64,000 nucleotides of DNA, taken from assembly GCF_000011745.1 (NCBI RefSeq), contig NC_007292.1, positions 124,001 through 188,000 on the forward strand. The letters are read 5' to 3'. The stretch is from Candidatus Blochmanniella pennsylvanica str. BPEN. GTDB lineage: Bacteria; Pseudomonadota; Gammaproteobacteria; Enterobacterales; Enterobacteriaceae. Under the pieces are notes generated by a model. That model saw only the letters and a list, made by a program, of their open reading frames with translations. It did not search any database and had not been told where the DNA came from. This document shows positions 11,367-62,783 of the stretch, piece after piece; within the stretch, counting starts at the first letter, position 1, and every line of letters starts with the position of its first letter. A program made the position numbers and the translations under genes.

Positions 11367-11643
11367 AATATATAAAAAATAATACAGTGATATTATCTCG
11401 ATTTTTTAATTTTTAAAATTATATGCATACAACTTATTCTACAACATACTGATGATTTGACGTAATGTAAATAAAAATTTATTAGATAAATAGAATTTAT
11501 ATCCTGATTCTATTGAATTATATCAATTTTAAAATTAACAATAGTTATTAACTGTTAGAGTATTTATAATATGAATGTAACTATATGCGTGGTTTTTACT
11601 AAAAACGTCGAAAATTATTTCCAATAAAAAAATTAATGTTAAA

Positions 11644-15712: not shown

Positions 15713-17013
15713 TGAAACTATATAATATTAAGCAACCTAGTGAACAAGTCACGTTTACTCAAGCTCTCTTACAAGGATTAGGAAAAAATCAGGGGTTATT
15801 TTTCCCAAAAGATCTTCCAAAATTCTCTATATTTGAAATAAATTCTCTCTTAGAAATGAGTTTTATAGAACGTAGTACGCATATTTTGTCTACATATATT
15901 GGCTCTGAATTATCAAAAAATAGTATATTAACTTGTGTTAAAAATGCTTTTAATTTTCCAGTCCCATTAGTGTGTATAAATAATAATGTTGCAATTTTAG
16001 AACTTTTTCATGGCCCAACTTTGGCTTTTAAAGATTTTGGAAGCCGATTAATGGCGCAAATGTTAAATCAGACTAACCATTGTTCTGATAAACCAATGGT
16101 TATTCTGACTGCTACTTCTGGAGATACAGGTGCTGCTGTAGCCCATGCTTTTTTTAATTTAAGCAATATACATGTTATAATTCTTTACCCTAGAGGCAAG
16201 ATTAGTGCATTACAAGAAAAATTATTTTGCACTTTAGGAGGCAATATTTCTACAATATCAGTAAATGGAGATTTTGATTCATGTCAACGTTTAGTTAAGA
16301 AAGCTTTTGATGACAGTGTACTGCGACAGAAATTAAATTTAAATTCTGCGAATTCCATTAACATTGGCCGATTATTAGCTCAAATTTGTTACTATTTTGA
16401 AGGGGTATCACAATTACCGCATCAAATGCGTAATAAATTAGTTATTGCGGTTCCTAGCGGTAATTTTGGAAATTTAACAGCAGGACTATTAGCTCAATCT
16501 TGTGGATTACCAGTAAAGAAGTTTATTGCTGCTACTAATATTAATGATACTGTGCCTAGATTTTTAGAGTTTGGTTATTGGGAACCTCGCCCTACTCTTT
16601 CAACGTTTTCTAATGCTATGGATGTAAGCTCTCCAAATAATTGGTCTAGAATAGAAGAATTGTTTCGTCGAGAAAATAAATCTATTAAAGAATTGGAATA
16701 TGGTTGTGTTAATGATTTTCTCACCGAGAAAACAGTCCAAGAAATTGCAGATTTGGGATATCTTTCCGAACCTCATACCGCTGTAGCATATCGATTACTG
16801 TGTGATAAATTACATTCTGATGAATTTGGTATATGTCTTGGTACTGCTCATCCTGTTAAATTTAAAGAGTTAGTAGAGGATTTTTTAAAAAAAAAGATAC
16901 AATTAATATTACCAATTGTATTAAAAGAACGTATGAAATTACCTGTTTTATCGTTTAAAATACCTAAATGTTTCTCTTCATTACGTAACCTAATTTTAAG
17001 CATAATGTCTTAA
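15712..17013 (+). CDS. thrC: Threonine synthase
   Basis: ThrC is a PLP enzyme that converts O-phosphohomoserine to threonine. The product has 433 aa against 428 in E. coli. It begins [15 protein letters not shown]; the PLP lysine lies in LAFKDFGSRL, and TATSGDTGAAV and AVPSGNFGNLTAG are intact. Its ATG overlaps the thrB stop by one base. A run of nine A at about 16887-16895 encodes Lys codons near the C-terminus. It is the last gene of the thr operon and is followed by a spacer with the dnaK promoter. Confidence 0.97.
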   Translation: MKLYNIKQPSEQVTFTQALLQGLGKNQGLFFPKDLPKFSIFEINSLLEMSFIERSTHILSTYIGSELSKNSILTCVKNAFNFPVPLVCINNNVAILELFHGPTLAFKDFGSRLMAQMLNQTNHCSDKPMVILTATSGDTGAAVAHAFFNLSNIHVIILYPRGKISALQEKLFCTLGGNISTISVNGDFDSCQRLVKKAFDDSVLRQKLNLNSANSINIGRLLAQICYYFEGVSQLPHQMRNKLVIAVPSGNFGNLTAGLLAQSCGLPVKKFIAATNINDTVPRFLEFGYWEPRPTLSTFSNAMDVSSPNNWSRIEELFRRENKSIKELEYGCVNDFLTEKTVQEIADLGYLSEPHTAVAYRLLCDKLHSDEFGICLGTAHPVKFKELVEDFLKKKIQLILPIVLKERMKLPVLSFKIPKCFSSLRNLILSIMS

Positions 17014-40891: not shown

Positions 40892-42292
40892 TCATTTAAA
40901 TTTTCGAATATCTACAAAGCGTCCAGCAATGGCGGCGGCGGCCGCCATTGCTGGACTAACTAAATGAGTACGACTCCCACGCCCTTGGCGACCTTCAAAG
41001 TTTCGGTTACTAGTAGAAGCACATCGCTCACCTGGTTCGAGTCTGTCATTATTCATAGCTAGACACATAGAACAACCAGGTAAACGCCACTCGAATCCTG
41101 CTTGTATGAAGATCTTATTTAATCCTTCTTTTTCTGCTTGATTTTTTACTAACTTAGATCCGGGTACTACAATTGCTTGTGTATTTTTGGAAATATGATG
41201 TCCTTTAATTGTTTGTGCCGCTACACGTAAATCTTCAATACGTGAGTTAGTGCATGACCCTATGAATACTTTATCGATAGAAACATCTGTTAAATAAGTA
41301 TTGGATTGAAGTTTCATGTAAATTAAAGCACGTTCAGCAGAATTGCGTTCTATAGGATCTATAAAAGATTCTAGAGATGGGATTGGTTGGTCAATAGAGA
41401 TAACTTGACTAGGATTAGTTCCCCAGGTTACTTGTGGATTAACATTAGACACGTCAAAATCAAATTTTTTATCGAAGTGAGCATCATGGTCGGAATATAA
41501 AGTTTTCCAATATAATAATGCTTGTTCCCAATTCTTTCCGGTTGGAGAAAATTTACGGTTTTTTAAATAATCGTAAGTAGTTCTATCTGGCGCTATTAAA
41601 GCAGAAGTTGCTCCCATTTCAATAGCCATATTACACAGGGTCATGCGTTCTTCCATGCTTAAGAGAGTGATAATAGGTCCACAAAACTCTACTACATGAC
41701 CGGATCCTCCTCCATGTCCAATTTTTCCAATAATTGCTAAAATTATATCTTTGGCTGTAATTTGAGGAGCGATAATACCGGAAAGGTTAATTTGCATTGA
41801 TTTATATCGAATTTGTTGTAAAGTTTGTGTTGCTAATACATGTTCTATCTCTGATGTTCCTATTCCAAAAGCTAAAGCACCAAAAGCTCCATGAGTAGCA
41901 GTATGAGAATCTCCGCACACGATAGTCATACCGGGTAATGTGATACCTTGTTCTGGCGCTAAAACATGAACTATTCCTTGATAAGGATGATTTAAACCAA
42001 ATAACGTAATTCCAAAATCTTTACAATTTTTTGTTAATCTATCTAATTGTTCTTTAGCCATACTTCCAGAATGATTAATATTTTTTGTTGTAGTAGGGAC
42101 GTTATGATCCATAGTGGCAAATGTTTTATTTGGTTGTCTAACTATACGTTTTCTTAGACGTAGTGCTTCAAAAGCTTGGGGTGATGTAACCTCATGCAAC
42201 AAATGTCTATCAATATATAATATTGGAACATCATCTTTATTCTTATGAACTATATGTGCATCGTATAACTTCTGGTATAAGGATTTTCCCAT
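40892..42292 (-). CDS. leuC: 3-isopropylmalate dehydratase large subunit
   Basis: LeuC is the aconitase-type [4Fe-4S] subunit of isopropylmalate isomerase. The product has 466 aa, the same as in E. coli. Cluster ligands lie in [13 protein letters not shown] and [32 protein letters not shown] and the C-terminal [17 protein letters not shown] are intact. It begins one base after the leuB stop. A short GC-rich stretch of Ala codons near 40930-40945 stands out in this AT-rich gene. Confidence 0.98.
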
Positions 42293-46684: not shown

Positions 46685-46768
46685 TCTATAAAATTTATTT
46701 ATGTGATAAATAAAAATATTATTTGAAAATAGTTATAGCTCCTCCTGTGATGATACAATTTATGTTAT

Positions 46769-56098: not shown

Positions 56099-57541
56099 AT
56101 GTCAGGCATACTATTATCTAACCCGGTCAATGCTATACCATTGATGAATCGTATTAGGAAAATACATTTTGTTGGTATAGGCGGAACCGGAATGTGTGGA
56201 ATTGCAGAAATATTGGCACATGAAGGTTATTGTATTACTGGGTCTGATATTGTATATAGTAGCACGACACGGCACTTATTTGAATTAGGGGTGAAAATCT
56301 TTATTGGACATAAATATAGTAATATAAACAACGCCAATGTTATTGTTGTATCCAGCGCTATTCACCCAAATAATCCTGAAATTTTAGCTGCTAAACAAGC
56401 TCGTATTCCCGTTATTAAGCGTGCGGAAATGTTATCCGAACTAATGAGATTTAGACATGGAATAGCTATTTCTGGAACGCATGGGAAAACTACTACTACT
56501 ACAATGATAGTTAATATCTATACTGCAGCAGGATTAGATCCAACGTTTATAAACGGAGGCATAGTCAAATCAGAAGGTGTGCATGCTCGGCTTGGATATA
56601 GTCGTTATTTAATCGTAGAAGCAGATGAAAGTGATAATTCATTTTTGCATTTGCATCCTATGGTGGAGGTGATTACCAATATTGATACTGACCATATACA
56701 TGAGTATCAAGGAAATTTTGAATATCTTAAAAAAGCATTTATTGATTTTTTACACAACCTACCATTTTATGGGTATGCTATAGTGTGTATTGATGATCCA
56801 GTAATTTGTGAGATTTTACCTAAAATTAAAAGGAAGATAATCACTTATGGTTTTAATAAAAATGCTAATTTGCATATTTTTAATTATCGTCAACATATAG
56901 AAAAAAGTAGTTTTACCGTATCGCGTTTCAATCAAACAAAACTACAGGTTACTTTAAATGCCCCTGGTTGTCATAATGCGTTGAATGCTACAGCTGCTAT
57001 TGCAGTAGCAACTGAAGAAGGAATCAGTGATAAAATTATTCTCAAAACTATGTTGGATTTTCAAGGAACACATCGCCGTTTTGAAAATTTAGGTTATTAT
57101 TCTTTAAATAAAATAAATGACCAAACAGGAGAAATTCTGTTGATAGATGATTATGGACATCATCCGGCTGAGTTACATGCTACTATTGTAGCGATCCGGA
57201 CCGGATGGCCTGATAGACGGTTGGTTATGGTATTTCAACCTCATCGATATACGCGTATAAAAGAATTGTATTATGATTTTATTGATGTACTTTCTAATGT
57301 AGATATTCTTTTGATATTACATGTTTATTCCGCTGGGGAACCACCTATTTTAGGAGCAGATAGTCAATCCTTATGTCATGCAATTCGTGAATTTGGTAAG
57401 ATTAATCCAACATTTATATCAAATACGAAAATGTTATCAGGAGCGTTATTCAGACTCTTAAGAAATAACGATTTGCTCTTAATTCAAGGAGCTGGTACAA
57501 TAGGGGAGGTTGTGCGTAGATTAATTGTTAAAAACGATTAA
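56099..57541 (+). CDS. murC: UDP-MurNAc:L-alanine ligase MurC
   Basis: MurC attaches L-Ala to UDP-MurNAc. The product has 480 aa against 491 in E. coli. It has [17 protein letters not shown], the ATP loop [44 protein letters not shown] and [12 protein letters not shown]. In E. coli ddlB follows directly; here the gene ends at an inverted repeat and ftsQ begins after about 135 bp. Confidence 0.98.
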
Positions 57542-57566
57542 TCATAAATATATGATAATTATGATT
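57540..57566 (+). terminator. Inverted repeat straddling the murC stop
   Basis: AATCATAA (57540-57547) and TTATGATT (57559-57566) form an 8-bp perfect stem with an 11-nt loop, beginning inside the murC stop codon. A short C-TTA follows, with no real U-tract. It may weakly end murC transcripts where ddlB has been deleted. Confidence 0.35.
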
Positions 57567-57657
57567 CTTAATGATACGAAATGACAGAATGTAAAAACGA
57601 AACACAATAATAAATTTTTATGAAAATAAGAATACGCAAAGAGTGGGTTTACTAATA

Positions 57658-57679
57658 CACCTCAATTAGGATTGAGGTG
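57658..57679 (+). promoter_or_regulatory. SD-sequestering hairpin at the ftsQ start
   Basis: CACCTCAAT (57658-57666), loop TAGG, ATTGAGGTG (57671-57679) is a perfect 9-bp stem with four G-C pairs in very AT-rich surroundings. The 3' arm contains GAGGTG, a good Shine-Dalgarno sequence for GTG 57689. The 5' arm CACCTC mimics the 16S anti-SD. The upstream GTG 57677 also lies in the stem. Confidence 0.6.
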
Positions 57680-57688
57680 CATAACCGA

Positions 57689-58471
57689 GTGATAATTAAA
57701 TATGTTTTAAAAAAAAGGTATAGATTGCAGCATCAATTATTAGATTGGATACTAATATTTGTTGCTACAATTAGTATTGTTTGGAGTTCTTATAAAATAA
57801 GAGAATGGATTCATAATGTTTGTTGTAACCCTGTATCTTACATGATAGTAACTGGGAAACGGCATTATACTACTGACACTGATATCCATCAGCTTATAGT
57901 AAAACTAGGAGTATTAGGTACATTTATAACACAGGATGTTAACATTATCCAAAAACAAATTGAAAGTTTGCCATGGATTCAGCAAGTTAGTGTTAGGAAA
58001 CAATGGCCGGACACATTAAAAATTCATATAATAGAATATATTCCTTTAACATATTGGAATGATTTTCACATAATTAGTACAACAGGAATTATATTTAAAG
58101 TACCTAAAGAATATCAAGATAACGACAAAAAAGTGATGCCATCTTTGTATGGACCAGAAGGCAGCGAGCGGGCAGTATTGGCTAATTATTATGCGTTTAA
58201 TGAGATATTAAAATCTATCAAATTTCAAATAAAATCAGTACAAATGGATACACGCTACTCATGGCAACTGATTTTGCAGGATAATATCCATCTAAAATTA
58301 GGTAGAAATAATATAATCGAACGATTATATTATTTCATTAGAATTTATCCTATTCTTTTTCAGAAAATTAACAACAATAATACATGTATTGATTATATAG
58401 ATTTACGTTATCGTTCAGGATTTGCTGTAAGATGGAGCTCAAATTCGGTCACTCCTGTAACTTCGTGGTAA
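57689..58471 (+). CDS. ftsQ: Cell division protein FtsQ
   Basis: FtsQ is a bitopic membrane protein that links the early Z-ring to FtsL/FtsB. Starting at GTG 57689 gives 260 aa; GTG 57677 would add four residues (E. coli 276). The first is preferred because GAGGTG (57674-57679) lies nine bases upstream. A transmembrane helix (about 19-38) is followed by the POTRA domain with GKRHYTTDTDIHQLI, FITQDVNIIQKQI, LPWIQQVSVRKQWPDTLKIH and MPSLYGPEGSE. The end IDYIDLRYRSGFAVRW matches E. coli, and the Gln-rich tail is missing. ddlB is absent upstream; ftsA follows after 34 bp. Confidence 0.95.
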   Translation: MIIKYVLKKRYRLQHQLLDWILIFVATISIVWSSYKIREWIHNVCCNPVSYMIVTGKRHYTTDTDIHQLIVKLGVLGTFITQDVNIIQKQIESLPWIQQVSVRKQWPDTLKIHIIEYIPLTYWNDFHIISTTGIIFKVPKEYQDNDKKVMPSLYGPEGSERAVLANYYAFNEILKSIKFQIKSVQMDTRYSWQLILQDNIHLKLGRNNIIERLYYFIRIYPILFQKINNNNTCIDYIDLRYRSGFAVRWSSNSVTPVTSW

Positions 58472-62761: not shown

Positions 62762-62783
62762 GCACATTATTTAAATAATGTGC
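62762..62783. promoter_or_regulatory. 22-bp perfect palindrome upstream of secA
   Basis: The half-site GCACATTATTT (62762-62772) is followed directly by its exact reverse complement (62773-62783), 27 bp before the secA ATG. It could be an operator for a dimeric regulator or, as RNA, a hairpin close to the ribosome-binding region. No match to a known operator is recognised. Confidence 0.5.

Follow-up and report, generated by a model that had tools for sequence, protein, structure and literature searches.

Does the hairpin at the start of ftsQ in Candidatus Blochmanniella pennsylvanica str. BPEN exist because it controls FtsQ, or is it the product of a mutation that happened to build a ribosome-binding site and its complement side by side? 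The genome under study, designated G000, is a single contig of 791,654 bp, and positions are given for a 64,000-nt window, the whole stretch of DNA that was analysed. The hairpin CACCTCAAT-TAGG-ATTGAGGTG, located at 57658-57679, consists of nine Watson-Crick pairs, four of which are G-C, and is joined to GTG 57689 by a linker (57680-57688), confirming a first-pass annotation that had described a perfect 9-bp stem with a TAGG tetraloop, and with GAGGTG in the 3′ arm opposite CACCTC (Table 1). The sequence GGATCACCTCCTT, which contains CACCTC and which we take to be the 3′ end of 16S, occurs once in the G000 genome. A literature search covering titles and abstract openings, with few subscription papers among them, returned nothing on this hairpin and no paper in which Blochmannia and ftsQ appeared together.

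Table 1 Features of the murC-ftsQ junction of G000 (window positions)
Feature	Position	Strand	Basis or occurrence
murC, upstream gene	56099..57541	+	ORF; Pfam Mur ligase domains; adjoins ftsQ in 14/14 genus genomes
murC-ftsQ spacer, remnant of ddlB loss	57542..57688	+	
Relic of ancestral ftsQ codons 1-10 (as read from the profile)	57657..57685	+	Codon-register profile test
5′ arm CACCTCAAT, containing anti-SD-like CACCTC; older than 3′ arm	57658..57666	+	Identical in G007, G013, G004; CAACTCAAT in G002
Loop TAGG	57667..57670	+	
3′ arm ATTGAGGTG with SD GAGGTG	57671..57679	+	
Derived GTG; CACG in G007, G013 and G002	57677..57679	+	One deletion and two substitutions private to G000
GTG, most likely ftsQ start codon	57689..57691	+	Common to G000, G007, G002, G013, G004, G005 (6/9 alignable genomes)
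ftsQ	57689..58471	+	Pfam FtsQ_DivIB_C and POTRA_1 (scan from 57677)

The genus was sampled with 14 genomes (G000 and 13 further genomes), in which the G000 branch is represented by one isolate and one assembly. As murC adjoins ftsQ in all 14, the loss of ddlB upstream of ftsQ, which had been annotated for G000, is genus-wide; the missing function is presumably covered from another locus, since every one of these genomes has, elsewhere, a domain of D-Ala-D-Ala ligase type (covering profile positions 1-203 or 1-204 of 204). Outside the genus, 14 of 16 loci were used for a profile, with L018 (start not found) and L026 (divergent N-terminus) excluded, and three Pelagibacteraceae loci found in the scan were not used. 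At the 14 loci the frame preceding ftsQ ends 1 nt 5′ of the ftsQ ATG in 13 cases and 4 nt 5′ of it in L032, is long (309-356 aa) in 12, and is a D-Ala-D-Ala ligase in all 10 that were scanned, and the FtsQ N-terminus is typically MSQAA, followed by Leu, Ile or Arg and then by Asn.

The hairpin region was aligned across nine genomes (G000, G007, G002, G013, G004, G005, G006, G009 and G011); five others (G001, G003, G010, G008 and G012) were excluded as no homologous junction was recognised. GTG 57689 is most likely the codon at which ftsQ starts. In G004, an in-frame TGA stands immediately 5′ of the counterpart of this GTG, and there can therefore be no earlier initiation in that frame in G004. 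A second in-frame GTG is present in G000 at 57677-57679, within the 3′ arm, and is absent from the other eight alignable genomes. In G011, G009 and G006 (loci L009, L010 and L011), another GTG, the former codon 5, appears to be the ftsQ start, and this likely start lies in the 3′ arm of a different short stem, AACACT/AGTGTT, whose arms are identical in the three genomes and whose loop is variable.

The DNA that forms the hairpin is read here as eroded ftsQ codons 1-8, with the ATG lost. The former ATG is now ACA at 57657-57659 (ATA in G005), and a profile of ftsQ residues 2-10 found its best spacer position in one codon register, just past the ACA, in eight of the nine alignable genomes. Taken alone, the match reached significance in G006 only (LQAVLNTRK, equalled by 0 of 200 shuffles); it was marginal in G009 (P 0.035) and fell short of significance in each of the six other genomes of the eight. 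G000 itself gave no score at this register because a 1-nt deletion breaks the relic frame. A whole-junction DNA alignment of G000 with the ddlB-ftsQ junctions of the 14 outside loci gave a P of the sum of 0.30, and the same alignment was significant in only two of nine genomes, G005 (0.005) and G006 (0.045).

Folded alone, the hairpin has an energy of -10.8 kcal/mol, and RNAfold of 57600-57720 forms it within a structure of -20.6 kcal/mol (z -2.75, with 2 of 200 shuffles as good). Among 20,000 shuffled spacers, a stem of at least 9 bp with at least four G-C pairs occurred at a frequency of 0.0002 and any 9-bp stem at a frequency of 0.00725, in line with the annotation's argument that chance is an unlikely source of such a stem; its description of the spacer as almost devoid of G and C was too strong, as the G+C content 5′ of the hairpin is low, yet amounts to 22% (26 of 116 bases). 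Among 40 genes of the window whose starts are conserved in three relatives, ftsQ ranks first for predicted SD strength at GTG 57689 (-9.3, median -3.4) and second for the energy needed to open its initiation region (11.4 kcal/mol, median 5.35). The SD is paired within the stem in the predicted folds, so that a locked start holds as a prediction.

These energies and the fold z-score are what would be expected of a functional translational lock, in which the stem hides the SD and either lowers FtsQ or awaits an opener such as temperature, an upstream ribosome or a helicase. The rough energy balance nevertheless resembles that of the relatives, the sum of SD and opening energy being +2.1 in G000 and +1.9, +1.6, +0.2, +2.4 and +4.5 in G007, G002, G013, G004 and G005, respectively. 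On these predictions, the gain in SD strength and the cost of opening in G000 roughly cancel; the offset is rough because the SD-like stretch summed for G007, G002, G013 and G004 is separated from the start by 14-17 nt, a wider spacing than a usual SD has, and if these stretches are inactive (sums without them of 5.8, 5.2, 3.8 and 6.5, respectively) G000 would be the better initiator. An Rfam scan of 57400-57900 gave nothing over the gathering score, its two matches (E 0.17 and 0.98) both falling short of it, which also speaks against a lock.

Comparison with the relatives also speaks against a lock. Neither GAGGTG nor the full set of nine Watson-Crick pairs was found in any of the eight other alignable genomes; CACCTC of the 5′ arm is present also in G007, G013 and G004. 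Across the alignment, 71.6% of the cells of the named structure pair, compared with 68.4% in shuffles, of which 22 of 500 reached the observed share, and with 19-38% in slid controls. The covariation score is 0.287 compared with 0.227 (attained by 8 of 500 shuffles, unconditioned), and for the six core pairs 46 of 54 cells are paired. When neutral drift was simulated without conditioning, P was 0.071 at the fitted rate, 0.418, 0.171 and 0.011 at 0.5, 0.75 and 1.5 times that rate, and 0.009-0.026 in runs of matched divergence. Such values, together with the different start-covering stem of G011, G009 and G006, would suit a short hairpin core that is conserved near the ftsQ start in the clade and was merely strengthened in G000. 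The stem was, however, chosen from G000, and when the neutral simulation was conditioned by running it outward from this genome, where the stem was noticed, the raw covariation excess was lost: the core paired in 40 of 48 cells against a neutral mean of 35.3 (P 0.20), and in 24 of 30 cells of the five distant genomes (P 0.17), while the outer three pairs formed in 9 of 24 cells against a neutral mean of 16.8 (P(≤) 0.02), below the drift expectation. The fold z-score of the start region, -2.77 in G000, is unremarkable in the eight relatives (-1.56 to +0.69) and ranges from -1.10 to +1.78 in the 14 loci outside the genus, and the hairpin is absent from the predicted folds of G007, G002, G013 and G004 and present in that of G005. 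We consider a conserved core very improbable. The annotation's proposal that the stem evolved, or has been kept, for control of FtsQ is likewise not supported by the relatives, with core pairing no better than neutral where compensatory changes had been looked for and with the stem missing from close relatives, the outcome that the annotation itself had named as refuting, and a functional lock is judged quite unlikely; regulation of FtsQ by the hairpin in G000 today is possible, and has no comparative support.

The explanation that we favour, with moderate confidence and from the aligned sequences, is that the perfect stem is a recent, lineage-specific product of quasipalindrome-templated (template-switch) mutation. 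Between 57641 and 57720, only three edits are private to G000 relative to G007, G013 and G002 (an A-to-G change, a C-to-T change and a one-base deletion), and these are adjacent, lie in the 3′ arm and convert CACG to GTG. The corresponding sequence of G007 is an imperfect inverted repeat, CTCAAT-TAGG-ATTGAG, followed by CACG. In the 5′ arm, CTC is preceded by CAC, to which the new GTG is complementary, and the uninterrupted stem is therefore 9 bp in place of the 6 bp of G007. In the proposed event, the nascent strand would have folded back onto CTCAAT, copied the CAC of the 5′ arm as GTG, and then returned to its own template. Because the copied arm holds the anti-SD-like CACCTC, resembling the 16S tail, a single event would have created a strong SD and simultaneously paired it, and since the predicted SD gain is close to the opening cost, the change probably had little effect on fitness and reached fixation by drift. 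The inverted repeat available in the ancestor is ambiguous, as G013 and G002 have ATTAAG, which introduces a C-A mismatch into the 6-bp stem seen in G007; the grouping of G000 with G013 in the tree has a support of 80%.

The same three edits might instead be independent ordinary mutations in eroding non-coding DNA that completed the palindrome by chance. With just three bases in the templated tract, three ordinary mutations could suffice, two of the edits are transitions, and private edits are common in G000, with 5,695 found at the 262,591 sites of a genome scan (~22 per kb). Set against this, the surrounding 80 bp contain no further private edit, and inverted repeats of 7-8 bp are in excess at the clusters of private edits. 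The genome scan identified 20 multi-edit clusters, of which three had the G000 allele within a perfect inverted repeat of at least 7 bp, compared with 0.50 for random alleles of one fixed base composition (0 of 100 replicates as many); at a threshold of at least 8 bp there were two clusters (0.22 random, 1 of 100 replicates), and at one of at least 9 bp the ftsQ hairpin was the one cluster (0.09 random, 9 of 100 replicates). The other two clusters behind the excess at 7-8 bp are A+T-only stems. A scan of the window, with loops of up to 40, comprised 38, 41 and 63 clusters relative to G007, G013 and G002, respectively. For the 38 clusters, it gave no excess of G000 alleles over G007 alleles at 7 bp (1 versus 3) or at 8 bp (1 versus 2), as ordinary mutation would predict, and one against none at 9 bp; random alleles produced at least one 9-bp stem among these clusters in 0.09 of trials, or 0.0025 per cluster. 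Besides the ftsQ hairpin, the window scan had three cases of at least 8 bp: a 13-bp one at 16081 in G013, with one base there different in each relative; a T-rich one at 11408 in G007; and one at 56105, in the allele of the relatives. At 56105-56107, near the murC start, G000 carries three adjacent private substitutions (AAT to GGC). The chance-based support for a template switch is thus moderate and not decisive, and completion of the stem by three ordinary mutations is regarded as unlikely. Two further readings, an intrinsic terminator and an error made at the palindrome in sequencing or assembly, would fit a relatively G+C-rich hairpin that lies between genes and is represented by a single assembly; a terminator scan of 57450-57760 (stem plus T tract) found 0 sites, however, and an exact complement of the other arm is not expected from error, making either of these extremely improbable.

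Perfect stems are frequent in the window as a whole, with 14 of at least 9 bp compared with a Markov mean of 4.55 (20 runs), and four with at least four G-C pairs compared with a mean of 0.15. Pervasive perfection of palindromes in G000 was considered and rejected, as 10 of the 14 stems lie within ORFs and 10 have a perfect counterpart in one or more of four relatives; the ftsQ hairpin belongs to neither set. Relative to these four genomes, the stems at 46694, 47536, 57658 and 62762 are perfect in G000 only. The last of these is a nine-bp hairpin (62762-62783) located 27 nt 5′ of ATG 62811 of a SecA protein (Pfam). Relative to G002 it shows a two-sided change (G-C to A-T) and a change of U-G to C-G, with pairing retained, and there is one mismatch each in G007 and G013. 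The secA gene of E. coli is controlled by an upstream hairpin, and the SecA hairpin may have a better claim than that of ftsQ to be a leader structure that has been kept. Two longer inverted repeats were also observed. One, of 14 bp, is perfect and lies inside ftsQ (58305-58336), with all 14 pairs in G007, G013 and G002 and 13 of 14 in G004; the other, a G+C-rich perfect palindrome of 16 bp in a minus-strand ORF (40921-40956), retains 16 of 16 pairs in G007, G013, G002 and G004, with changes on both arms.

A further proposal combines origin and function: a single template switch, spanning a sequence upstream of a start codon that resembles the anti-SD, made a bistable ribosome-binding site, which has since become a working control of FtsQ in G000. 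We regard this as quite unlikely. If it were true, FtsQ would be under a control opened, for example, by heat or by leader ribosomes, the SD and its lock would have been acquired in one step at little net cost, and the locus would illustrate the way in which a translational switch can arise. A template-switch origin would also mean that a striking, chance-defying SD/anti-SD hairpin can be mutational and not selective in origin, which calls for caution when regulation is read from single genomes, above all from the drifting genomes of symbionts. Should template switching at anti-SD-like sequences be general, locked ribosome-binding sites could arise by it in a single step and be counted across genomes.

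RNA thermometers and translational riboswitches are leader hairpins that sequester the SD, and the ftsQ hairpin is like them in having its SD in the 3′ arm with an anti-SD-like 5′ arm opposite. It is unlike them in that the stem is not conserved, that its pairing does not exceed the neutral expectation once conditioned on G000, and that it has no Rfam match over threshold and no known opening condition. In Buchnera, according to a study of intergenic spacers, these combine relic sequence with functional elements, and SDs and hairpins in the cases considered are conserved across taxa (PMC3164680). The murC-ftsQ spacer is similar in being the spacer of a reduced symbiont derived from a lost gene, to which the eroded 5′ end of ftsQ itself would here be added, and differs from the Buchnera cases so described in that its hairpin is not conserved. 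Quasipalindrome-associated template-switch mutation has been described for E. coli (PMC7202029), and template switching has been proposed as a source of RNA hairpins (PMC8794818). As in the cases considered from these two papers, the edits at ftsQ are clustered on one branch and match a copy of the other arm, giving a perfect inverted repeat longer than that of G007; unlike them, the ftsQ case is drawn from species comparison alone and concerns a three-base tract. What sets the ftsQ case apart from those outlined there is that the arm proposed to have been copied is anti-SD-like, so that the product would be a ribosome-binding site together with its own lock.
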